Origin: Gordonia sp. SID5947
GTDB taxonomy: Bacteria > Actinomycetota > Actinomycetes > Mycobacteriales > Mycobacteriaceae
Reading direction: 5' to 3'
DNA: 64,000 bases
Assembly: GCF_009862785.1 (NCBI RefSeq)
Contig: NZ_WWHU01000001.1
Coordinates: forward strand, 4,526,001-4,590,000
Both the position numbers and the translations under genes were made by a program. Numbering within the stretch: the stretch's first letter is position 1; every line of letters starts with the position of its first letter. This document shows, piece by piece, positions 45,748-57,188 of the stretch. A model generated the notes under the pieces. It worked only from the letters and a program-made list of their open reading frames with translations. It searched no databases and was not told the origin of the DNA.

Positions 45748-46251
45748 TCAGAAGTCTCCCGCGTTGCGGCGCAGAGATTGGATCGCGGTCACCATCGACG
45801 CCATCTCGTCGCCGTTCATCCCCACCGCGCCGAACACCTCCTTGTTGAGCGTCGTCGTGGCGTCCTCGACGGTCGATCGGCCGAGGTCGGTGATCTCCAC
45901 GAGCGTGGTTCGTCCGTCGGTCGGATGCGGCACGCGGCGTACCAACTTGGCTTCCTCCAAGCGACGGATCGCGTGGGTCACGCTGGTGACGTGCACCTGC
46001 AGCCGATCGCTCGCTTTGGTGATCGGCAGCGCACCTTGTCGCGAGAAGGCGAGCAGACGCAGCAGTTCGAAGCGCGAGAAGCTGAGGTCGTACGGCCGTA
46101 ACGCCGCCTCGACTCTCGCCAGCAGGATCTGATGTGCGCGCATCACCGAGGTGACCGCGACCATGCCGTCCGCGACGTCGCCCCAGCCGGCATCGGCCCA
46201 GTTCTGACGCGCCTCGGCGATCGGATCGAAACGCATGCTGCGGCCTGCCAT
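45748..46251 (-). CDS. MarR family regulator
   Basis: 167 residues from the ATG at 46249-46251. The winged helix is clear: LSFSRFELLRLLAFSRQGALPITKASDRLQVHVTSVTHAIRRLEEAKLVRRVPHPTDGRTTLVEITDLG, with the DxR wing motif. A TAAGCT hexamer six bases before the start suggests leaderless transcription. It converges on the valine operon and may or may not control it. The ligand is unknown. Confidence 0.9.
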   Translation of the reverse strand: MAGRSMRFDPIAEARQNWADAGWGDVADGMVAVTSVMRAHQILLARVEAALRPYDLSFSRFELLRLLAFSRQGALPITKASDRLQVHVTSVTHAIRRLEEAKLVRRVPHPTDGRTTLVEITDLGRSTVEDATTTLNKEVFGAVGMNGDEMASMVTAIQSLRRNAGDF

Positions 46252-46257
46252 GGGCTC

Positions 46258-46263
46258 AGCTTA
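46258..46263 (-). promoter_or_regulatory. -10 element for leaderless MarR gene
   Basis: On the minus strand TAAGCT is followed by six bases (GAGCCC) and the ATG. Confidence 0.45.
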
Positions 46264-46605
46264 AAGGACGGCACCGAGCCGGTCGTTCTCTCGTTTCCGG
46301 CCAGTGGCGCAGTCGAATTCGTAGATGCGGTATTCATGGGTAGCGGATTCGGTTCAGTAGGATGTCGATTTAATATCGCTAAAAGCGTCCCAGGCGCAGC
46401 GCTGCGGAATAGTGTTAATGACACCGGATTCAGCGGTCTCTTTCCGAGCAGCTCGAGGCAGGTGATTTCTACCGATCACGAACATGATTGACGCAAATCC
46501 ATGACTCGAGCGCGGTATTCGAAGCAAAAGGGCATACGCGCTGTGCGTGGGGGGTGAACGGGTCATATCCCTGACAAGAATTCCACCTGACATAGAGGAG
46601 TCCCC
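46264..46605. other. AT-richer intergenic region without a gene
   Basis: This stretch is distinctly richer in A/T than its surroundings (for example around 46365-46385 and 46410-46425) and contains no coding frame with normal codon bias. It must hold the promoter of the secreted-protein gene at 46606. A ribosome site AGAGGAG lies before that ATG. No operator repeat was recognised. Confidence 0.5.
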
Positions 46606-47325
46606 ATGTTTTCTCGTGGTCGTCGGTCCCTGTCCGCACGTTTGGCGGTCGTCGCGGTTTCTGCCGCCGCCTTTTCGCTCGTCTCCGGTGTGTCGAATGC
46701 GAACGCCGGTCCCAACGGAAGTCTCGATCCGATCCTTCCGCCAGGATTCCCGTGTATCCACACCAATGTCTTTCCCCCGGTTGCCACCTGGGGCTGGACG
46801 CGCCTCGACGGCCACGAACCGAAGTTCGTGGTGGGTCCGGGTGGTCAATCGGGCAAGGGCTCGCTGAAGCTGGAGAACAGCCGGGGTCCGGCGAGCTACT
46901 TCCATCCGGGTTTCAGCACGCCGCTACCGCAATTGGCGCGACAGCGAAATGCTCTCGGTTTCATGTTCAAGGGCACATCCGCCACTTTCCAGATCAGGGT
47001 GCGTGACGCGAAGCGGACAGACCGGGTGGTCTCCGGATTCACCACTCTCGTCTGGCAGCCCTCGAAGAACGGTGTCACAAACGCCGACAACTTCGTGACG
47101 CGCCGAGATCTCGCGCGCGGACGTTGGTGGAGCACGCAACCGATCGCCGGACAAGCGGCCGGACAGAACAACCTTCGGACCCTGACCCAGATCGCCGACC
47201 AGAATCCGCGTGCGTGGGTCACCGAATACGGCGTGCGTAATGGTTCGACGACGCCGACGTCGTATGTCGACAACATCGTCTACGGCTGCTCGAAGTGGGA
47301 TTTCGAACCGGACGCCGGTTCCTGA
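46606..47325 (+). CDS. Secreted protein of unknown function
   Basis: 239 residues from ATG 46606, with AGAGGAG upstream. A twin-Arg-less signal peptide (LAVVAVSAAAFSLVSGVSNANA) ends near residue 34. The mature part has only two Cys, one near the start (FPCIHTN) and one near the end (VYGCSKW), which could form a disulfide closing the domain. Many Trp, Gly, Thr and Asn suggest a beta-sandwich. No catalytic motif or known family is recognised. It stands alone, flanked by terminators. Confidence 0.8.
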   Translation: MFSRGRRSLSARLAVVAVSAAAFSLVSGVSNANAGPNGSLDPILPPGFPCIHTNVFPPVATWGWTRLDGHEPKFVVGPGGQSGKGSLKLENSRGPASYFHPGFSTPLPQLARQRNALGFMFKGTSATFQIRVRDAKRTDRVVSGFTTLVWQPSKNGVTNADNFVTRRDLARGRWWSTQPIAGQAAGQNNLRTLTQIADQNPRAWVTEYGVRNGSTTPTSYVDNIVYGCSKWDFEPDAGS

Positions 47326-47330
47326 CCACT

Positions 47331-47361
47331 CGCTGACCGGCGGTCCACCCGCCGGTCAGCG
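47331..47361 (+). terminator. Terminator of the secreted-protein gene
   Basis: CGCTGACCGGCGG (47331-47343) pairs perfectly with 47349-47361 around a 5-base loop, directly after the stop. There is no T tract. Confidence 0.7.
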
Positions 47362-47385
47362 TCCATCGATCCGCCTCTGAGCGCA

Positions 47386-47436
47386 GCCTCGGTGGGGGCC
47401 GTCACGACACCTGCCTGTCGTGGCCCCTGCCGAGGC
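47386..47436. terminator. Large hairpin between convergent genes
   Basis: GCCTCGGTGGGGGCC (47386-47400) pairs with 47422-47436 with two wobble pairs, and an inner ACGACA/TGTCGT stem (47404-47409, 47416-47421) extends it. It lies 36 bases after the end of the minus-strand TetR gene and probably ends that transcript. Confidence 0.65.
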
Positions 47437-47471
47437 TGCCGACATCTGGGAGGCGCGGTGTTCGGACACCG

Positions 47472-48116
47472 TCACCGTCTGGGCTGCGCCACCAGCATCT
47501 CGATCGCACCCACGATCGTGTCGACCAGTCCTGTGACCGTGTGCGCACCGAGTTCGCCCCGTGTCTCGTCCGAGCGCATCATGATCACCGACTCGACGAG
47601 GCGAAAGGGAAGTAGTCCGCGGGTGTCCGCGGGGTCGCCCAGGGCGTCGGTGGCGAGGGCCTCGTAGGCGGCCGCCAATTCCTGGCGGGCGGCCCGGAAC
47701 TCGGCGAACCTGTCGTCGGCCACCTCCGGCAACAGATACAGCGCGCCGAGGTTCCACCGGGCCTCCGCCAGCTGGGTCAGGTCGTAGCGGGCGAGTTCCA
47801 GCAGGCGTTGCCCGGGTTCACCCTCGGAGGCCAGTAGTTGCCGCGCCTGCTCCACAGACGGGTCGACCGTGGTGGCGAGCAATGCCGCCAGGATGTCGTC
47901 CTTGGTCTTGAAATAGTGATAGAGCGATGCCTGTCGTACCCCGACCGCATCGGCGATCATCCGTGTGGATGTGCCGGTGTAGCCATGTCGGGTGAAGAGT
48001 TCGGCAGCAGCATCGAGGATCTCGTCCCGGGCGGTGTCACCGTGCCGTCGCGGTTTGACGAGACGGGGACGTCCCGGGCTGGCGGCTGTGCGCGTCGAAG
48101 CGGGCCGCGTGGCCAT
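47472..48116 (-). CDS. TetR family repressor of the adjacent nitrogen operon
   Basis: 214 residues from the ATG at 48114-48116, which has GGGGA seven bases upstream; an ATG at 48132-48134 is an alternative without a site. After a basic tail comes the helix-turn-helix (TSTRMIADAVGVRQASLYHYFKTKDDIL). The ligand domain is Leu/Ala-rich. It is divergent from the APC permease gene, with two GACAG-type palindromes in between. TetR genes of this kind are commonly next to urea-carboxylase-type operons, so control of 48343-55212 is likely. The inducer may be a nitrogen compound. Confidence 0.9.
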   Translation of the reverse strand: MATRPASTRTAASPGRPRLVKPRRHGDTARDEILDAAAELFTRHGYTGTSTRMIADAVGVRQASLYHYFKTKDDILAALLATTVDPSVEQARQLLASEGEPGQRLLELARYDLTQLAEARWNLGALYLLPEVADDRFAEFRAARQELAAAYEALATDALGDPADTRGLLPFRLVESVIMMRSDETRGELGAHTVTGLVDTIVGAIEMLVAQPRR

Positions 48117-48247
48117 CTGATGGTCCCCGTTCATCGTTCGTTTCGGTCTCTCGGAAGCTTCACCCTAGTGCACGGCAGGCTGTCCCGCCGCGCGCTGACC
48201 TGCGCGGTGTTACACACTCGTAGCGTGCGTTTTCCGCCCCGAAACAA

Positions 48248-48297
48248 TTCTGTCATTCGACAGAAATCGTCGGGCGATTATCTATCACTCGACAGTT
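48248..48297. promoter_or_regulatory. Two operators for the nitrogen operon
   Basis: TTCTGTCATTCGACAGAA (48248-48265) is a perfect palindrome with 7-base arms around ATTC. ATCTATCACTCGACAGTT (48280-48297) is a degenerate second copy, 32 bp away centre to centre. Both lie 45-95 bases before the APC permease start, where the divergent TetR would act. Confidence 0.7.
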
Positions 48298-48342
48298 AAA
48301 GCTCACCGTGGAGCTCCGACCTCAGTAGAGAGGCGAACGATC

Positions 48343-49884
48343 ATGACCTCCACCGCCACCACGCCATCCGCGCAACCGCCCGCGTCCTCGGGCGGCGACG
48401 CCGGCGATCTGTCCGACTTCGGCTACGACCAACAACTGCACCGCTCGCTCGGCAAGTTCGCCTCCTTCGCCGCGGGGTTCTCCTTCGTCTCCATCCTCAC
48501 GACGATCTTCCAGCTCTTCGGTCTCGGCTTCGGCTTCGGCGGGCCGGCGTTCTTCTGGACCTGGCCCATCGTCTACGCCGGCCAGTTCCTCGTCGCGCTC
48601 TGCTTCGCGGAGATCGCCGCGCGGTATCCGATCTCGGGCGCCATCTACCAGTGGTCGCGGCGGATGGGAGGCGAGGTGATCGGATGGTTCGGCGGCTGGT
48701 TCATGATCATCGCCCAGATCGTCACCGCATCCGCGGCGGCAATCGCACTGCAGGTGGTCCTCCCATCGGTCTGGACCGGTTTCCAGATCATCGGTGACGA
48801 CCCGATGCTCACCAGCACCAGCGGTGCGGCCAATGCGGTGCTGCTCGGCTCGATCCTGCTGGTGATCGTGACGGCCATCAACTGCGTCGGCATCTCCTGG
48901 ATGAGCCGTATCAACAACATCGGCGTGACCTGTGAGCTCGTCGGTGTGACGGCAGTGGTCCTCGCCCTTTTCACGCACGCCAAGCGCGGACCCGACGTCG
49001 TGTTCGACACCGGTATCCCCGGCCAGCAGCCGGGCTACATCTGGGCGTTCATCGTCTCGGGCCTGATGGCGGCCTACGTGATGGTCGGATTCGGCTCGGC
49101 GGGCGAGCTCGCGGAGGAGACCCGCAACCCGCGTCGCGTCGCACCCCGCACGATCCGCCTGGCGCTGACCGTGTCCGCCATCGGCGGCGGACTCATGCTG
49201 CTCGGCGCGCTCATGGCTGCCCCGACCCTCGACGAACAACTCGCCACCGGCGGGCTGCCCTACGTCCTCGACTCCGTGCTCGGCAGCTTCTGGGGCAAGG
49301 TGCTGCTCTGCGACGTCGCCGTCGCGATCTTCATCTGCACGCTGGCGATCCAGACCGCATGTTCGCGACTCATGTTCTCCATGGCTCGCGACGGCCGGCT
49401 CCCGTTCTCCGCGACGCTGTCCCACGTCAACAAGCGCACTGGCACTCCCATCGCACCCTCGATCCTGATCGGAGTGCTCTGCATCGGCATCCTCGTCGTC
49501 AACGTCGGCAACTCGGCGATCTTCGCGACCCTCGCCAGTGTGTGCATCATCCTCATCTACCTGGCATATCTCGCGGTGACCGGACCGATGCTCTACCGGC
49601 GCCTGCAGGGTTGGCCGAAGGGTGGCGTGGCCGTCGACGCCGAGGGCAAGAAGCTGTTCTCGATGGGACGACTCGGCATCGTCGTGAACCTGCTGGCGGT
49701 GGTGTACGGCGCGCTCATGGTGGTCAACCTGGCGTGGCCGCGCGCCGAGGTCTTCGATCCGGCGGGGGAGATGCCGATCCTGCGTTGGGCAGGCCCGATC
49801 TGCATCGCGATCACCGTGCTCGTCGGCATCGCCTGCTTCCCCCGCGGCAAAGAGCACCCGAAGCCCGTGACGGTCGGCGCCTGA
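48343..49884 (+). CDS. APC family permease of the urea-carboxylase-related type
   Basis: 513 residues from ATG 48343, with AGAGG upstream. About 12 membrane helices. The first half shows SFAAGFSFVSILTTIFQLFGLGFGFGGPAF, and YPISGAIYQWSRRMGG, typical of amino-acid/polyamine/organocation permeases. GFGSAGELAEETRNPRRVAPRTI is the conserved loop of this group. It is first in the operon, so it probably imports the nitrogen substrate of the enzymes encoded downstream, such as guanidine, urea or an amine. The substrate is inferred only from context. Confidence 0.88.
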   Translation: MTSTATTPSAQPPASSGGDAGDLSDFGYDQQLHRSLGKFASFAAGFSFVSILTTIFQLFGLGFGFGGPAFFWTWPIVYAGQFLVALCFAEIAARYPISGAIYQWSRRMGGEVIGWFGGWFMIIAQIVTASAAAIALQVVLPSVWTGFQIIGDDPMLTSTSGAANAVLLGSILLVIVTAINCVGISWMSRINNIGVTCELVGVTAVVLALFTHAKRGPDVVFDTGIPGQQPGYIWAFIVSGLMAAYVMVGFGSAGELAEETRNPRRVAPRTIRLALTVSAIGGGLMLLGALMAAPTLDEQLATGGLPYVLDSVLGSFWGKVLLCDVAVAIFICTLAIQTACSRLMFSMARDGRLPFSATLSHVNKRTGTPIAPSILIGVLCIGILVVNVGNSAIFATLASVCIILIYLAYLAVTGPMLYRRLQGWPKGGVAVDAEGKKLFSMGRLGIVVNLLAVVYGALMVVNLAWPRAEVFDPAGEMPILRWAGPICIAITVLVGIACFPRGKEHPKPVTVGA

Positions 49885-49939
49885 GCCGAAGTCCTTCCTC
49901 CCGCGACCGACACCCGATCCTCCGAGGAGTTGCATCAGC

Positions 49940-50782
49940 ATGACCACAGCCACCACCGCCAGTACCGCCGGCGCCCGCGCTCATGCGCGTTCGCAGGCCG
50001 GCACCATCACCGACTCGATGCCGGTGGTACCCGCCGCCGACTGGCCGAACCCGCCCGACGATCTCGATCCCGCCCGATTGACCTGGGCCGAAACCGTTCC
50101 CGGGGGTCGCTACACCACCAAGGTGCTGGCTCGCGGAACCCGGTTGCGCCTGCGCGACGTCGCGGGCAGCGCCTGCGCGCATGTGATGCTCTGGCGCGCC
50201 GAGGCTCCATGGGAACGGCTCAACGTCGCCGACACCGTCAAGGTGCCCTGGCAGGCGTACCTCACCACCGGGCACCCGTTGCTCAGTGACCAGGGCCGCG
50301 TCCTGGCCACCGTCGTCGCCGATGACAGCGCCCATCACGACGCGCTGTGCGGCACCACCACCGCGAGTGGGAACTTCGCCAAGTACGGTGCCGGGGCAGC
50401 ACATTCGGACAGTCCGGCAGGCCGTGAACTGTTCACGCTGGCAGCTGCCAAGAACGGCTTGACCCCCGCCGACGTCGCGCCCTCGTTGTCGTTCTTCCAC
50501 GGTGTCGTGGTGGAGTCCGACGGCACGCTCACGTCCAAGGGTTCAGCGGGACCGGACAAGTCCGTCGACCTTGTCCTGCATCTGCCGTGTGTCGTCGCGA
50601 TCGTCAACACCGCGCATCCTCTCGATCCCGCACCGGTGTTCACCGCGGGCCCCCTCGAGGTGCTCGGGTGGCGGGCGCTCGACGACCTCGATGGCCTGCT
50701 GTCTTCTGTCGCGTCGACAGATCCGGAGTACCAGCGTGCCGTTGCCAACTCCGAAGATGCCTGGGCTGCAGCTCATTTCTGA
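49940..50782 (+). CDS. Urea-amidolyase-associated protein 1 (DUF1989; carboxyguanidine deiminase subunit candidate)
   Basis: 280 residues from ATG 49940, with GAGGAG upstream. The DUF1989 pattern appears as GGRYTTKVLARGTRLRLRDVAGSACAHVMLWRA, and DDSAHHDALCGTTTASGN with the His/Cys residues likely to bind zinc. In guanidine-degrading bacteria the pair UAAP1/UAAP2 has been identified as carboxyguanidine deiminase, which makes allophanate from carboxyguanidine. The partner is the next gene, 31 bases downstream. An older view linked them only to urea amidolyase. Confidence 0.85.
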   Translation: MTTATTASTAGARAHARSQAGTITDSMPVVPAADWPNPPDDLDPARLTWAETVPGGRYTTKVLARGTRLRLRDVAGSACAHVMLWRAEAPWERLNVADTVKVPWQAYLTTGHPLLSDQGRVLATVVADDSAHHDALCGTTTASGNFAKYGAGAAHSDSPAGRELFTLAAAKNGLTPADVAPSLSFFHGVVVESDGTLTSKGSAGPDKSVDLVLHLPCVVAIVNTAHPLDPAPVFTAGPLEVLGWRALDDLDGLLSSVASTDPEYQRAVANSEDAWAAAHF

Positions 50783-50813
50783 GAACTCGATCGATTCCGC
50801 AAGGAGAACCATC

Positions 50814-51506
50814 ATGACCACCACCCTGTCCCAGCGCGACGCAGCCGAGTTGGCACTCGTGCCCGGAGCGGTGATCGACGACGCCGAGGTGGGTGAACGG
50901 GCACCGTGGTCGGGCATCGTCGCTGCGGGGGACGTGTTGACCATCGTCGACCTGTACGGAAACCAGGCCGTGGACACTCTCTTCTACGGCGGCCGCGACC
51001 ACGGCATCCGCTACTCGGCGCAGGCCACCATCGCCGCGCAGGGCAACATCTTTCTCACCACCGGCACGGTCATCCGTGATCAGGAATCGAATCCGATGAT
51101 GACCATCGTCGACGACGAGGTCGGCAACCACGACACGCTCGGTGGCGCGTGCTCGCAAGAGTCGAACACCTTGCGATACGGCCACCACACCAAACATCAG
51201 CACGCGTGCGTGGAGAACTTCCTGATCGGCGGGGCGCGCCACGGCCTCGGGAAACGGGATCTGGTCGGGAACGTCAACTTCTTCATGAACGTGCCGGTCG
51301 ACCCCGACGGATCCCTCGGCATCGTCGACGGGTTGTCGGCGCCCGGGAAGAGGCTCGCGTTGCGGGCCGACGTCGACACCCTGGTGCTGATCTCCAACTG
51401 CCCGCAGATCAACAACCCCTGCAACGGGTTCGACCCGACGGCGGTTCGCGTCATCGTCACGCGCCCGGCCGATCGTCAGACGCCCGGAACACACACGAGG
51501 AGCTGA
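50814..51506 (+). CDS. Urea-amidolyase-associated protein 2 (DUF1989; carboxyguanidine deiminase subunit candidate)
   Basis: 230 residues from ATG 50814, with AAGGAGA upstream. The DUF1989 core reads GDVLTIVDLYGNQAVDTLFY and later NHDTLGGACSQESNTLRYGHHTKHQHACVENF, carrying the His and Cys residues expected to hold zinc, then LISNCPQINNPCNGFDPT. It pairs with the 49940 protein. Gene order permease-UAAP1-UAAP2-carboxylase-allophanate hydrolase is that of guanidine operons. Activity is inferred. Confidence 0.86.
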   Translation: MTTTLSQRDAAELALVPGAVIDDAEVGERAPWSGIVAAGDVLTIVDLYGNQAVDTLFYGGRDHGIRYSAQATIAAQGNIFLTTGTVIRDQESNPMMTIVDDEVGNHDTLGGACSQESNTLRYGHHTKHQHACVENFLIGGARHGLGKRDLVGNVNFFMNVPVDPDGSLGIVDGLSAPGKRLALRADVDTLVLISNCPQINNPCNGFDPTAVRVIVTRPADRQTPGTHTRS

Positions 51507-51511
51507 CTTCC

Positions 51512-53554
51512 ATGGCCACCATCACCGTCCTCCGCGCGGGGCCGCTCACCACGATTCAGGACTGGCCCGGCCGGGTCGGTTACTGGAAGGTGGGCGTGCC
51601 ACCGTCGGGACCGATGGACGACCTGTCGTTCCGCCTCGCCAACCGGGCGGTGGGCAATCCCGAACACGCTGCCGGATTGGAAGCCACCATGATGGGTCCG
51701 GCGCTGCGCTTCGCCGAGGCGACGGTGGTGGCGGTGACCGGAGCTCCCGCCGTGGTCACCATCAACGGAATCTCGGTGCCGCAATGGGTGTCTCACCCCG
51801 TCGCGGCGGGAGACGTGCTCGACGTCGGCCCGGCCACCGATCTCGGCATGCGCGTCTACGTCGCCGTCGGTGGCGGAGTCGACGCCGAGGACTATCTGGG
51901 GAGCAAGTCGACCTTCACCTTGGGCAGGTTCGGGGGGCTGGCCGGCCGCACACTCGCCGACGGCGATGAACTCCGCTCCGCGCGACTGCCCGTCGGCGTG
52001 ACCGGACGCGTCCTCGGCGACGAACAACCCGCCTTCACCCACTCCTGGCAGCTCGGCGTGACCGTCGGGCCGCACAGCGCACCCGAATTCTTCACCGCCG
52101 ACGACATCGACGACCTGTTCGGCACCGACTATGAGGTGCACTTCAATTCGGACCGAACCGGGATTCGTCTGATCGGGCCGAAGCCACGGTGGGCTCGCAC
52201 CGACGGCGGCGAGGCGGGATTGCACCCCTCCAACATCCACGACAACGCGTACTCGGTGGGCGCACTGGATTTCACCGGCGACACCCCGATCCTTCTCGGG
52301 CCCGACGGACCGAGCCTCGGTGGTTTTGTCTGTCCTGTCACCGTCGTGACCGCGCAGCGCTGGAAACTCGGGCAGCTCAAGCCCGGCGACACCGTCAGAT
52401 TCGTCCCGGTGCGCAGCGATCAGACCGCGTCACCCTCGCAGACCGGGCTGGGACGCCGGGCCTGCTTCGTGGATGTGCTCTCCGCCGGCGGGGATCCGGA
52501 CGGCGGGATTCTCGGTTCCACCACCACCGCGGACGGCACCACCTCGGTCACCTACCGCCGCAGCGGCGACGACAACATCCTCGTCGAGTACGGCGACATG
52601 CACCTCGATCTCGCGTTGCGGGCGCGGGTCCACGCGTTGAGTGAGCGGATCGACGCGGAGCGGCCTGCCGGCCTCATCGATCTGACCCCCGGCATCCGGT
52701 CGCTACAGGTCAAAGCGGATCCGGATGTGTGGTCACAGGAGCGAATGCTGGCGTGGCTCAACGAATGCGAGAGTCAGTTACCGGCGGCGGAGGACCTCGT
52801 CGTCCCGAGCCGGACCGTCCATCTGCCGCTGTCGTGGGACGACCCGGCAACCCGTGAGGCCATCGAACGGTACATGCTCGGTGTCCGCTCGGACGCGCCG
52901 TGGTGCCCATGGAACATCGAGTTCATCCGTCGGATGAACGGCTTGGGCTCTGTCGACGACGTGCACGAGATCGTCTTCGACGCAAGCTACTTGGTGCTGG
53001 GGCTGGGAGATGTGTATCTCGGTGCACCGGTCGCCGTTCCTCTCGATCCGCGCCACCGACTTGTCACCACCAAATACAACCCGGCGCGGACCTGGACACC
53101 CGAGAACGCCGTCGGGATCGGTGGCGCCTACATGTGCATCTACGGCATGGAGGGGCCGGGCGGGTACCAGTTCGTCGGCCGAACCACCCAGGTGTGGAAC
53201 CATCGCTACCCGTCGCAGGCCCCGGGTTTCGAACCGGAGCATCCGTGGCTGCTCCGGTTCTTTGATCAGATCCGTTGGTACCCGGTCAGTTCGGACGAAC
53301 TCCTCGACATGCGTGCCGACGTCGCGGCCGGTCGTGGCGACAGTGTGCGCATCTCCCACGGATCCTTCTCGCTCGCCGAGCACCAGCGGTTCCTCGACCG
53401 GAACGCCGCGGACATCGCGAGGAGGCGCACCACGATGGAAGCAGCGCGCGCCGAGGAGCGCGAACGATGGTCACGTCAGGGCGAGTTCGCAGTCGTGGCC
53501 GCGATAGATGCCGTGGGCCACGAGGAGGCCATGGACGAAGGGAAGGTTGCATGA
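51512..53554 (+). CDS. Carboxyltransferase part of a urea/guanidine carboxylase, lacking BC and BCCP domains
   Basis: 680 residues from ATG 51512, with GAGGAG upstream. Only the carboxyltransferase half of a roughly 1200-residue urea/guanidine carboxylase is present: the AHS2/KipA-type domain (about residues 1-330; GPLTTIQDWPGRVGYW, GVPPSGPMDDLSF) and the AHS1/KipI-type domain (about 370-600; APWCPWNIEFIRRMNG, ASYLVLGLGDVYLGAP, MEGPGGYQFVGRT). The N-terminal biotin carboxylase and the C-terminal biotin carrier with its MKME-type Lys are missing; the chain ends ERERWSRQGEF and a short acidic tail. UAAP1/UAAP2 and allophanate hydrolase flank it. It may rely on a biotin carboxylase encoded elsewhere, or work like 5-oxoprolinase PxpBC. 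Confidence 0.85.
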   Translation: MATITVLRAGPLTTIQDWPGRVGYWKVGVPPSGPMDDLSFRLANRAVGNPEHAAGLEATMMGPALRFAEATVVAVTGAPAVVTINGISVPQWVSHPVAAGDVLDVGPATDLGMRVYVAVGGGVDAEDYLGSKSTFTLGRFGGLAGRTLADGDELRSARLPVGVTGRVLGDEQPAFTHSWQLGVTVGPHSAPEFFTADDIDDLFGTDYEVHFNSDRTGIRLIGPKPRWARTDGGEAGLHPSNIHDNAYSVGALDFTGDTPILLGPDGPSLGGFVCPVTVVTAQRWKLGQLKPGDTVRFVPVRSDQTASPSQTGLGRRACFVDVLSAGGDPDGGILGSTTTADGTTSVTYRRSGDDNILVEYGDMHLDLALRARVHALSERIDAERPAGLIDLTPGIRSLQVKADPDVWSQERMLAWLNECESQLPAAEDLVVPSRTVHLPLSWDDPATREAIERYMLGVRSDAPWCPWNIEFIRRMNGLGSVDDVHEIVFDASYLVLGLGDVYLGAPVAVPLDPRHRLVTTKYNPARTWTPENAVGIGGAYMCIYGMEGPGGYQFVGRTTQVWNHRYPSQAPGFEPEHPWLLRFFDQIRWYPVSSDELLDMRADVAAGRGDSVRISHGSFSLAEHQRFLDRNAADIARRRTTMEAARAEERERWSRQGEFAVVAAIDAVGHEEAMDEGKVA

Positions 53555-55212
53555 GCAGGATCACCGACATCTATCGGCGCATCGAGGAGGTCGATCGTCC
53601 GGAGGTGTTCGTCACCCTGCGCCCGTGCGGCGACGTCGAGGCGGATCATCGGGAGCTGGCCGCCGGCGGTCCACTGGCGGGGATCGTCCTCGCGGTCAAG
53701 GACAACGTCGACGTGGCCGGGCTGCCGACGACCGCCGCGTGTCCCGGTTACGCGTACGTGGCGTCGGTCGACGCCCCCGTCGTCGCCGCGTTGCGCGCTG
53801 CGGGTGCGGTGGTGATCGGCAAGACGAACCTCGACCAGTTCGCGACCGGATTGGTCGGTACGCGCAGTCCGTATGGGGCGGTGCGGGATTCGCGCCGTGC
53901 CGATCGCATCTCCGGGGGCTCGAGTTCGGGGTCAGCGGTGGCCGTGGCGCTTGGCCTGGCCGACATCGCGATCGGCACCGACACCGCCGGATCGGGGCGG
54001 GTGCCCGCTGGTCTGCAGGGGATCGTCGGGATCAAACCGACGCTCGGGGTGGTCTCGACCGACGGCGTGGTGCCTGCGTGCGCGAGTTACGACACGGTGA
54101 CCGTCTTCGCGGTCGACCTGAACATGGCCGATCGGGCGATGGCCGTGATGGCCAGTGCGGCGGGCCCGAGACCATTCGGCTCCGCGACACGTCTTGCCGC
54201 GCCCGAGCAGCCCACCGTCGTGGTCCCGGCAGAGCTCCCCGAGCTCGACGACGCCTGGCGGGAAGCGTTCGGCACGGCGGTGGCCCGAGCGGAGGCGGCC
54301 GGTCTCCGGATCAAGACCGTCGACCTGGCGCCCTTCCTCGACGCGGCGAAGCTGCTGTACGAGGATGCCCTGGTCGCCGAACGTCACGATGCGGTCGGGT
54401 CATTCATCGACGATGCCGAACCGTCGGCCGGGATCGACCCCACGGTGGCCGGGATCATCAGTGGTGCAGCACGTTTCAGTGCGGTGGAGCTCCTGGCGGC
54501 GCGACGCCGGCTCGTCGAGCTGCGCGATGAGGCGATGGCCCAATGGGGTGATGCCGACGCCCTGCTGGTCCCGACGGCGCCGATGCACCCGTCTCTGGCC
54601 GATGTGGCCGCGGACCCGATCGGCGTGAACTCCCGATTGGGCACCTACACCAATTTCTGCAACCTCTTCGATCTGTGCGGTCTGGCCGTACCGGCAGGCG
54701 AGGTCGATGAGGCTGACGGTACCCGTGCGCAATTCGGGATCACCTTCCTGGGGCGTGCCCATGAGGATGCGGTGGTCGCCGACCTCTCGCGGCGGTTTCT
54801 CTCGGGCCCGATCGACGCGGTACCTGCCGCATGGCCCGAGTCGGGCGGTGCGCCGGCAATCGAGTTGGCGGTCTTCGGTGCGCATATGCGCGGTGGTCCG
54901 TTGACCCACGAACTCACCGCGCGGGGGGCTCGGTGGTCGGAAGAGATCCGTACGGCACCGAGCTATCGCCTCGTCGCCCTGGACACCACGCCGGCGAAGC
55001 CAGGTCTCGTCCGCGACCCCGAGCACGGCCAGGCCATCGAGGGGGAGGTGTGGACGCTGTCGCCGACAGCGCTGGGGGAGTTCCTCGCCGCCCTGCCCGC
55101 CCCGATGATGCTGGGCAGCGTAGAGCTGTCGGACGGCCGATGGGTGGTCGGGTTCGGTTGTGCGGCGGATGCGGCCGAGCGCGGTGAGGCGTTGGACCGC
55201 ATCCGCTGGTGA
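53551..55212 (+). CDS. atzF: Allophanate hydrolase
   Basis: 553 residues starting at ATG 53551, overlapping the previous stop (ATGA). The amidase-signature triad is present: Lys50 (AVKDNVDVAG), the Ser cluster GGSSSGS at 122-128, and the nucleophile Ser148 in TDTAGSGRVPAG. The C-terminal domain (about residues 440-553; LAVFGAHMRGGPLTHELTARGA) is the one found in AtzF/DUR1,2 proteins that finishes decarboxylation of the intermediate. It converts allophanate to ammonia and CO2. It is the last enzyme of the operon and the strongest clue that the pathway goes through allophanate. Confidence 0.93.
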   Translation: MSRITDIYRRIEEVDRPEVFVTLRPCGDVEADHRELAAGGPLAGIVLAVKDNVDVAGLPTTAACPGYAYVASVDAPVVAALRAAGAVVIGKTNLDQFATGLVGTRSPYGAVRDSRRADRISGGSSSGSAVAVALGLADIAIGTDTAGSGRVPAGLQGIVGIKPTLGVVSTDGVVPACASYDTVTVFAVDLNMADRAMAVMASAAGPRPFGSATRLAAPEQPTVVVPAELPELDDAWREAFGTAVARAEAAGLRIKTVDLAPFLDAAKLLYEDALVAERHDAVGSFIDDAEPSAGIDPTVAGIISGAARFSAVELLAARRRLVELRDEAMAQWGDADALLVPTAPMHPSLADVAADPIGVNSRLGTYTNFCNLFDLCGLAVPAGEVDEADGTRAQFGITFLGRAHEDAVVADLSRRFLSGPIDAVPAAWPESGGAPAIELAVFGAHMRGGPLTHELTARGARWSEEIRTAPSYRLVALDTTPAKPGLVRDPEHGQAIEGEVWTLSPTALGEFLAALPAPMMLGSVELSDGRWVVGFGCAADAAERGEALDRIRW

Positions 55213-55328
55213 CCGTGCCGGTCGCCGTCACTCGGCCGGTGTCGGACAATTATCCGAAAGCGCGTAATCCTCGCGAATCTCGTGTTTGAATGAGCCGGCT
55301 TGTTCGGGCGGGCAGGGGAGTGGGGCGG

Positions 55329-56888
55329 ATGACCGACTTGGGGCGCAACGGAATTCGGTTATCTCGACAACACCGACGTCGACGGGGCGGTCCGCGGGTG
55401 CGTCACCGGCTCGCCGTCGGCGTCACGGCTCTGGCCACGGTCGTGGCGGTCGGTGCCGGAGCGACGACGGGATCGGGACAGGCGGGGGCGGCGACGGTCG
55501 ACGACATCATCTCCGGCGTCGTCTTGGACGTGCTCGGCGGCAGTTCCGGTCTCGGGCAGCTGGGAACGCTCGCGGACGGCCTGATGGACGTCGTGAACGG
55601 CGGTGGCGCCGGCGTCGCCGACCAATGGCGGGTCCAGCTCTGCGGGTCCGGCGCCGCGAACGGTGGCGCGGATTGTTCGCGCTCGACCGGTGTCGGCCTC
55701 GCGATGGTGGCACCCGGCCGGATCGAACTCGTTCCGGTCGACGCATGGGGTGCGGCGTCGGGGATCTACGACGCCGTCGACACCGTCGACAATCTGCTGC
55801 CCGCCGCCTGGCAGTCGATCCCGGACCTGCGGCATCCCGAGCTTCCGGAGGGTGAGGCGACTATCGGCGGCAGCGGATTCCAGTTCGCCTTCGCCTCGAC
55901 CGGGGGCGAGGCCACGGCGATCTCGTATCTACCGGTGAGTCTGGCCACCGCCGGCGCGAGTGATGGCCGCGAGGCATACGCGTTCGCCGTCGTCGGTATG
56001 GCGAACGCATGGACGACCGACGACGTCACCACGTCGCTGGTCGGTATCCCGCTGCCGATCACCCTTCCCGGCATCGGCCACGTCAGCTGTTTCGGCGGAC
56101 TCACCGCTGCCTACGCGGACGGTGTCGGCGCCTGCGTGAACGTCGTGGGCACCTTCGACTTCCGCTGGACGGCACCGAACGGCGAGCTGCAGTTCGGCCT
56201 CACCGACCCGACCGGCATCCTGTTCGATCCCGCCTCGGTGCTCGGCACGGTGATCGCTGCGGTGATGACCGACGTCAGCGGCGCGGGGAACCTGCCGATC
56301 ACCCTCGGAAAGGACTTCGCCCGCCTGGGTTTCGGCGGGGACCACGGCCTCCTCAGCGGGAACTTCGTCCGTCTCACGAGCGATTACGGCAGTCAGGGTG
56401 AGACGACGATCGAGTGGCTGGGTCAGAAGCTGACCCTGAATCCGATGGTCGATGTCAACGGACAGGACCGTCCGAACCACCTCGGAGTGCCGTCCCTCGA
56501 TTTGAGCGAGCTCGACCCCGACGAGATCGTTCCCGTCGTGTCCCTCCCGGAGTTCGCGTCCCCCTTCGGCCTGCCGGACGCGGCCGGGCCGTCGGTCACG
56601 AGGACACCCTCGGCCGCGGCCGGTTCCGAGGTGACCGGCCCCGGGGTGACCGGCCCCGGGGACCCCGGCTCCGAGGTCGCTCGAACCGACGACGCCGGCT
56701 CCGAGGTCGCCGTCGACGGCACTTCGGTGACCTCGCCGAGCGGCGAGGCCACCGATTCGGACCCGACGTCGGGCGGGGGTGAATCCTCGAACTCGGCCGA
56801 CGGGTCGTCGACGGCAGACGACTCGTCGACAGACTCGTCCTCGCCACAGAGTGACTCGGCGTCGGCCGGTTCCGAAGACGCCTCCTAG
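55329..56888 (+). CDS. Large secreted protein with an acidic Ser/Asp tail
   Basis: 519 residues from ATG 55329, with GGGGAG upstream; an ATG at 55290 lacks a site. A signal peptide (AVGVTALATVVAVGAGATTGSGQAGA) ends near residue 55. The body is Gly/Ala/Val/Asp-rich and likely beta-helical, with four Cys. The last 110 residues, from about 56610, are low-complexity Ser/Asp/Gly/Thr, with repeated GSEV units. No catalytic motif is seen. Proteins of this kind are found in mycolic-acid bacteria as cell-wall surface proteins of unknown role. Confidence 0.78.
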   Translation: MTDLGRNGIRLSRQHRRRRGGPRVRHRLAVGVTALATVVAVGAGATTGSGQAGAATVDDIISGVVLDVLGGSSGLGQLGTLADGLMDVVNGGGAGVADQWRVQLCGSGAANGGADCSRSTGVGLAMVAPGRIELVPVDAWGAASGIYDAVDTVDNLLPAAWQSIPDLRHPELPEGEATIGGSGFQFAFASTGGEATAISYLPVSLATAGASDGREAYAFAVVGMANAWTTDDVTTSLVGIPLPITLPGIGHVSCFGGLTAAYADGVGACVNVVGTFDFRWTAPNGELQFGLTDPTGILFDPASVLGTVIAAVMTDVSGAGNLPITLGKDFARLGFGGDHGLLSGNFVRLTSDYGSQGETTIEWLGQKLTLNPMVDVNGQDRPNHLGVPSLDLSELDPDEIVPVVSLPEFASPFGLPDAAGPSVTRTPSAAAGSEVTGPGVTGPGDPGSEVARTDDAGSEVAVDGTSVTSPSGEATDSDPTSGGGESSNSADGSSTADDSSTDSSSPQSDSASAGSEDAS

Positions 56889-56993
56889 GCGGGCCGCGCC
56901 GCGTCCGAGCCGGTCACACGGTATGGGTCGCCCTCGTGGTTACAGTGGAGACCACGTTCAGCGTCACCCCGGTCCGCTCACCAAGGAGGAGCC

Positions 56994-57188
56994 ATGGCGG
57001 TAGATCCGGCGAAGAGCAAAGCGGTCTCCGAAGTCGTCCGTGCGCACCCGGGTATGAGCCTGGTAGCCGTCTCACCCGGCATCGTGGTGTTCCTGCTCGT
57101 CGGCTTCTTGCTGAACTGGCCGCTCGCCATCCTGTTGGGCCTTGTGGGGGCCGGCGCAGGCTACTACTTTCTGACCCGTCAGAAGTAG
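56994..57188 (+). CDS. Tiny membrane protein
   Basis: 64 residues with an excellent AAGGAGGA before the ATG. Two hydrophobic stretches (SPGIVVFLLVGFLLNWPLAILLGLVGAGAGYYF) follow a short cytoplasmic N-terminus. No family is recognised. It lies 13 bases before the S4-domain gene and is probably co-transcribed. Confidence 0.7.
   Translation: MAVDPAKSKAVSEVVRAHPGMSLVAVSPGIVVFLLVGFLLNWPLAILLGLVGAGAGYYFLTRQK

Follow-up and report, generated by a model that had tools for sequence, protein, structure and literature searches.

We analysed a window of 64,000 nucleotides from Gordonia sp. SID5947 (contig NZ_WWHU01000001.1, positions 4,526,001 to 4,590,000; the source genome comprises 5.1 Mb on two contigs). 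It contains an operon of the guanidine or urea type with the gene order permease, DUF1989 protein (UAAP1), DUF1989 protein (UAAP2), carboxyltransferase (CT) protein and allophanate hydrolase; a TetR gene precedes the operon in divergent orientation. The subject of this work is the CT protein (51512..53554, + strand), a guanidine carboxylase homologue of 680 amino acids that has neither the biotin carboxylase (BC) domain nor the biotin carboxyl carrier protein (BCCP) domain. We propose, with a probability of about 0.58, that the carboxyl group reaches it as carboxybiotin bound to an acyl-CoA carboxylase alpha subunit from a separate gene, AccA3 being the most probable one.

Guanidine and urea carboxylases are proteins of about 1200 residues with BC, CT and BCCP in one chain. 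The sole Pfam matches of the CT protein are CT_A_B (AHS2, PF02626) at residues 27-299 (51590..52408, +) and CT_C_D (AHS1, PF02682) at residues 347-565 (52550..53206, +). The urea/guanidine carboxylase model TIGR02712 is aligned at positions 448-1127 of its 1201 positions, where the CT part is complete, and the score is 977.1 bits compared with a family cut-off of 1303.85. Model positions 1-447, corresponding to BC, and 1128-1201, corresponding to BCCP with its biotin lysine, are unmatched; neither domain has a Pfam match in the protein, and the Pfam search found no ATP-binding domain. Hence, of the features of the single-chain BC-CT-BCCP guanidine carboxylases the CT protein has CT_A_B and CT_C_D, while BC, BCCP and a score above the TIGR02712 cut-off are lacking. 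With two defining domains absent it falls outside the single-chain family, and it most likely works like the CT half of that family. The upstream gene ends 5 bp ahead of the CT gene, which in turn overlaps the next gene by 4 bp, therefore the operon has no space for a hidden BC or BCCP gene. Pfam and TIGR models confirmed the genes and domains given in the initial annotation, i.e. the permease, the DUF1989 pair, the CT-only protein and the allophanate hydrolase.

A survey of relatives for the same short architecture, which the initial annotation had proposed, was carried out on two data sets. From named genomes we used the best 80 of at least 594 confirmed stretches, fetching up to 10 kb on each side, with some stretches cut by contig ends. 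The gene-calling script divided the 80 loci into 40 and 40; one locus (L117) with BC in a neighbouring frame was moved, resulting in 39 CT-only and 41 full-length loci. The CT-only loci belong to Gordonia, Williamsia, Mycobacterium/Mycolicibacterium, Rhodococcus/Rhodococcoides, Nocardia, Skermania and Dietzia. Full-length loci, encoding enzymes of about 1200 residues, come mainly from Streptomyces and also from Actinoplanes, Arthrobacter/Pseudarthrobacter, Amycolatopsis and others; a few (Lolliginicoccus, Mycobacterium sp. 1465703.0, Smaragdicoccus) share their order with the CT-only set. The closest named relatives of the CT protein among the matches listed are from Gordonia, namely G. hankookensis and Gordonia sp. 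DT101, both with 90% identity.

Within the genus Gordonia the CT-only form is found in 40 of 59 genomes, at 69% identity or more across most of the query. The match is split over two frames in two genomes (G035, G039) and contains one stop, perhaps the gene's own end, in three others (G027, G031, G032). None of the open frames of these CT-only forms exceeds 965 residues, which is too short for an added BC. Among the 19 genomes without the CT-only form, 17 gave no match at 1e-30 and two (G012, G052) gave only PxpC/PxpB-like matches. One genome, G006, has the CT-only form plus a full-length enzyme (open frame of 1296). Additionally, in a sample of the family a CT match at 1e-100 is present in 141 of 201 genomes, both architectures counted together.

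A tree was made by a quick method from 91 rows: 40 CT-only sequences (window included), 43 full-length sequences (yeast and G006 included) and 8 proteobacterial sequences from plasmids. Seven of the latter are annotated as single-chain enzymes of 1179-1228 residues; L139, the remaining one, is unannotated and was represented by its matched stretch only. The CT-only sequences form one clade (SH-aLRT 100), with one change of state on the tree. The ratio dN/dS of the CT gene is 0.084-0.177 for the five relatives compared, showing purifying selection. A pseudogene or a truncation artefact is thereby ruled out by recurrence, the single clade and dN/dS. The initial annotation had considered that relatives might hold a full-length enzyme at the same locus, with this copy simply truncated. 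Such enzymes were indeed found in other actinobacterial groups, but the CT gene is not a simple truncation, as it belongs to a single conserved clade under purifying selection.

The CT-only sequences have kept most of the conserved positions of the full-length enzymes: 168 positions are invariant in the 43 full-length sequences, and 142 of these are also invariant in the 40 CT-only sequences. Other positions are newly fixed in the CT-only set, among them H564 (His in 40/40, 0/51 in others) and D328 (Asp in 39/40 with one gap, 12/51 in others). Guanidine carboxylases are recognised, according to the part of the Nature 2024 paper available to us (PMC11410670), by Asp at K. lactis positions 1584 and 1330. 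The CT protein has both residues, as D500 (53009..53011, +) and D253 (52268..52270, +), respectively. D500 is Asp in 91 of 91 rows. At D253, the signature for guanidine rather than urea, Asp is found in 40/40 CT-only, 41/43 full-length and 8/8 proteobacterial sequences, the two with Asn being yeast and G006. Furthermore, K521 (53072..53074, +), the putative general base of carboxyl transfer, is Lys in all 91 rows; it corresponds to K. lactis K1605, named as the most likely general base in the text consulted of PMC5770610. As all 40 CT-only sequences retain the catalytic lysine along with the two signature Asp, the chemistry of the CT-only form is probably unchanged. The assignment to guanidine made in the initial annotation is supported by the two signature Asp residues together with the pathway genes present. 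The full-length enzyme of G006 (L137, L138), with its Asn at the guanidine/urea site, adjoins genes that by eye look like a branched-chain/urea-type ABC transporter, and the pairing in this genome is suggestive of separate urea and guanidine enzymes.

A structure model of the CT protein (mean pLDDT 76; residues 229-271, 520-559 and 499-505, around D500, largely below 50) was used solely to confirm the fold. The best fold matches are 5i8i and 3va7, with yeast urea carboxylase at ranks 1-3; PxpBC-like pairs were also found.

A BC or BCCP gene was looked for at the CT-only loci. BC queries against the 39 loci gave one match only, in L067, well upstream and on the opposite strand, and the BCCP query gave none. 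Clustering of the neighbouring genes returned no recurrent BC or BCCP family at these loci; the recurrent neighbours (Fic-like, CBS/nucleotidyltransferase-like and others) seem unrelated by eye. These queries and the clustering rule out a BC or BCCP gene hidden in or beside the CT-only operons.

A search of the source genome for a stand-alone BC-BCCP gene, as suggested in the initial annotation, returned three such subunits among six proteins with a biotin carboxylase C-domain. From context we take them to be AccA3-like (L129), AccA1-like (L131) and AccA2-like (L133). The AccA1-like and AccA2-like genes adjoin CoA-type CT genes. The other BC proteins are a BC-CT fusion (L134), a protein of 1872 residues (L132) taken by eye as a fused acyl-CoA carboxylase, and pyruvate carboxylase (L130), which passes two cut-offs. 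A free biotin carrier of 72-74 aa from the PRK05889 family is also encoded (L135:6964-7185); its gene adjoins an apparent sigma-factor/anti-sigma pair. CT_A_B is found in two proteins of the genome, the CT protein and a PxpC homologue that scores below the PxpC cut-off.

AccA3 is the most widespread donor candidate; 58 of the 59 Gordonia genomes have its type, as do 197 of the 201 genomes sampled from the family. The AccA1 type is found in 59/59 Gordonia genomes (in four over part of the length) and in 185/201 of the family. It was not found in three of the 141 genomes with a CT match (G065, G094, G099), and the loci of G065 and G094 were confirmed as CT-only, which rules out the AccA1 type as an obligatory partner. 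Of the 40 CT-only Gordonia genomes, 13 have no AccA2 type at 65% identity or above, which rules this type out as a dedicated partner; all 19 genomes without the CT-only form do have it, although G016, G057 and G058 only in two pieces. Mycobacterial AccA3 is common to several CT partners according to the parts of PMC4347857 and PMC11001197 available to us.

A fold search with the CT model found PDB 9yx5 at rank 20 (E 1.4e-3), entitled 'Structure of the long chain acyl-CoA carboxylase complex from Mycobacterium smegmatis with MSMEG_0435-MSMEG_0436 bound'. Sequence searches identified AccA3 in this entry, together with a CT_A_B/CT_C_D pair from the superfamily of the CT protein. Judged by title and sequences, a relative thus has CT superfamily proteins associated with a complex that includes AccA3. 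No paper on 9yx5 was found in the literature searched.

The proposed pathway, in which substrate, donor, docking and flux are predictions, would run as follows. The permease likely imports guanidine. AccA3, a single chain of BC and BCCP, would spend ATP to attach CO2 to its biotin, after which the carrier would move into the CT site for the reaction at K521 and D253/D500. The DUF1989 pair would then deiminate carboxyguanidine to allophanate, from which allophanate hydrolase would free two ammonia.

Several observations weigh against AccA3 as the donor, or against the pathway as a whole. The AccA3 type was not found in two of the 141 family genomes with a CT match, the draft genome G194 and G065, which is a single contig, 99% complete and verified as CT-only. 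In G065 the AccA1 type is absent as well; the BC proteins found there are limited to one AccA2-like subunit and one that resembles pyruvate carboxylase. Each of the three types is therefore missing from at least one CT-only genome, which speaks against a dedicated partner; no single donor is obligatory, and co-occurrence favours none. When the urea carboxylase model was run on the six BC proteins of the source genome, the AccA1 type and not AccA3 scored best (586.8 vs 512.5 bits). The pair in 9yx5, known here by title and sequence, is PxpBC-like and not a urea-carboxylase CT. Position D214 (52151..52153, +) is Asp in 40/40 CT-only sequences and in none of the other 51, which have A, S or N, and this perfect correspondence with the architecture is unexplained. 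Residues 123-153 (51878..51970, +) are conserved in the full-length and variable in the CT-only sequences and form the most relaxed stretch in the comparison with the full-length actinobacterial enzymes, followed by 68-98 and 626-656; 0 of 2000 shuffles reach it, although on average the CT-only set is more divergent (mean identity 71% vs 77%). This patch is possibly a former contact with BC or BCCP, and its relaxation fits a changed partner and equally no partner. Allophanate hydrolase, matched at 20/39 CT-only compared with 39/41 full-length loci, and the permease, matched at 29/39 CT-only loci (21/41 full-length), also count against the pathway. At loci without a neighbouring hydrolase or permease the pathway would need those genes elsewhere in the genome.

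The initial annotation offered two alternatives, BC and BCCP supplied in trans or a CT protein that works without biotin. The former is likely in view of our results. PxpBC, distant relatives of the CT protein, are taken to act without biotin, and by analogy ATP plus bicarbonate or a carboxyphosphate-like donor could be used in the CT protein's own site. That no donor subunit is universal, that BC and BCCP were both lost in one clade, that the former interface patch is relaxed and that residue 214 is Asp in the CT-only sequences but in none of the full-length or presumed full-length relatives would all agree with such an enzyme. By alignment, the site matching D214 is Asp too in 3mml, a PxpC-like homologue from M. 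smegmatis. However, the PxpC homologue of the source genome has Asn there, and the 3mml pair is the one present with AccA3 in 9yx5; Asp at 214 is therefore no marker of biotin independence, and its use as a PxpC-like, biotin-free marker is weakened. The CT protein scores 121.8 bits with the PxpC model (cut-off 500) and 35.1 bits with the PxpB model (cut-off 145.55), and no ATP-binding domain was found in it. We consider a PxpBC-like enzyme less likely than a donor in trans, and altogether improbable, since the 40 CT-only sequences keep 142 of the 168 positions that do not vary among the full-length, biotin-dependent enzymes. Slightly more doubtful is the far-reaching version, in which a CT site remodelled at D214 would activate bicarbonate itself throughout the actinobacterial clade, as the first biotin-free urea/guanidine carboxylase.

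If biotin is used, the donor could be a protein other than AccA3: the AccA1 or AccA2 type, a fused acyl-CoA or pyruvate carboxylase, the free carrier of 72-74 aa, or possibly whichever is available. All of these are encoded in the source genome, the AccA1 type occurs in 59/59 Gordonia genomes and has the most urea-carboxylase-like BC of the six, and G065 showed no BC proteins besides its AccA2-like and pyruvate-carboxylase-like ones. Against this stand the CT-carrying genomes that lack AccA1 or AccA2 and the CoA-type CT genes of their own next to both, and we regard another donor as just as doubtful as bicarbonate activation at D214. The least probable of the explanations is that the CT protein has ceased to be a carboxylase and instead serves the nitrogen operon as a regulator or scaffold, or that its substrate is a different urea-like compound. 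Related pairs of the KipI/KipA type have functions of a different kind, a CT-type pair is bound to the acyl-CoA carboxylase complex in 9yx5, and at 10 of the 39 CT-only loci the DUF1989 pair and the CT gene are present while neither permease nor allophanate hydrolase was matched in the fetched stretch. The invariance of the catalytic lysine and of both Asp residues in 40/40 sequences speaks against such a role, which would also leave the predicted deiminase and the allophanate hydrolase without a substrate.

The remaining genes of the operon, all on the + strand, score above the cut-offs of their models. The APC permease (48343..49884), likely a guanidine or urea-type importer, has 857.7 bits with TIGR03428, the urea-carboxylase-system permease model (cut-off 740.45). 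UAAP1 (49940..50782; TIGR03425, 277.5 bits, cut-off 205.95) and UAAP2 (50814..51506; TIGR03424, 320.4 bits, cut-off 284.7) are predicted subunits of carboxyguanidine deiminase, a function assigned from the literature, and both pass, as expected of that pair. Allophanate hydrolase (53551..55212; TIGR02713, 627.8 bits, cut-off 511.05) has the amidase and AH_C domains. The DUF1989 pair is present at 39/39 CT-only loci. The ten loci without a matched permease or hydrolase are L065, L067, L072, L075, L078, L081, L084, L087, L090 and L094; several are cut by contig ends, L094 being 8.9 kb. A hydrolase distant from the CT gene is plausible, because in Rhodococcus jostii an amidase is listed far from the carboxylase gene (PMC4222082, in the portion consulted). 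Directly after the operon, 55290-56888 encodes a protein with a Ser/Asp/Gly-rich tail, secreted by its look, and relatives of it also follow the operon in two Gordonia loci (L049, 67%; L123, 50%).

The initial annotation placed all five genes on one transcript under a TetR regulator. A TetR-family gene indeed adjoins the operon (47472..48134, - strand) and is divergent; it matched TetR-type models only, none over the cut-off, and is AmtR-like by position. The single transcript from permease to hydrolase is inferred from spacing and overlap. TetR homologues were matched at 75 of the 80 fetched loci. In Gordonia bronchialis amtR is located away from the operon according to the consulted part of PMC4222082, and the TetR gene next to the present operon is therefore not necessarily AmtR. 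The region separating it from the permease contains, at 48249-48295, two near-identical palindromic repeats 32 bp apart, with the motif CTRTC-N4-GAYAG. We regard these as candidate operators, CTGTCATTCGACAG at 48250..48263 and CTATCACTCGACAG at 48282..48295; the motif occurs nowhere else in the window. With the lead gene called in 38 of 39 CT-only and 38 of 41 full-length loci, the motif is found upstream of 31/38 operons in each set, and in 0/38 and 0/38 of the controls. A common candidate operator is consistent with one regulon for CT-only and full-length operons. No Rfam match to a guanidine riboswitch was found upstream at E up to 1 in 46000-57000.

The guanidine/urea carboxylases (TIGR02712; K. 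lactis 3VA7, 5I8I) resemble the CT protein in CT sequence over residues 3-673, in the Asp pair and catalytic Lys, in the operon with UAAP1/UAAP2 and allophanate hydrolase, and in the candidate operator; they differ by having BC and BCCP and about 1200 instead of 680 residues, and the CT protein scores under the family cut-off. PxpBC 5-oxoprolinase subunits and KipI-KipA (3MML, 5DUD) likewise have CT_A_B and CT_C_D without biotin domains. The CT protein, in contrast, is far under the PxpC and PxpB cut-offs, has both domains in one chain and keeps the urea-carboxylase residues, and the Pfam search found no PxpA among the five operon proteins. The mycobacterial acyl-CoA carboxylases with a shared AccA3 (9YX5 and kin) would be alike in using a BC-BCCP alpha subunit common to several CTs; their CTs are of CoA type instead of CT_A_B/CT_C_D, and the predicted substrate here is without CoA.

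The same gene order is found in M. smegmatis MSMEG_2184-2189 of the AmtR/GlnR regulon, where nitrogen starvation induces the genes (PMC4222082). That operon is annotated as a urea pathway, with no mention of the missing domains in the portion of the paper available to us. By gene order we infer that MSMEG_2187 is the CT-only form, and the reported data suit guanidine over urea as substrate, though the authors worked with urea. In the literature searched, which left subscription papers mostly outside, no urea/guanidine carboxylase without BC and BCCP is described.

If correct, the proposal would mean a split version of what is, in the literature available to us, a single-chain enzyme. It would also account for the label '5-oxoprolinase/urea amidolyase family' that the source databases give to such proteins. 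A biotin-free CT protein would instead mean new carboxylation chemistry. AccA3 is described as part of essential complexes in M. tuberculosis, although no subunit of its type was found in the nearly complete genome G065. With AccA3 as the donor, nitrogen scavenging would tap the biotin subunit used in making malonyl-CoA and mycolic acids as well, and in these mycolic-acid bacteria nitrogen starvation would be tied directly, at the level of biochemistry, to the synthesis of lipids.

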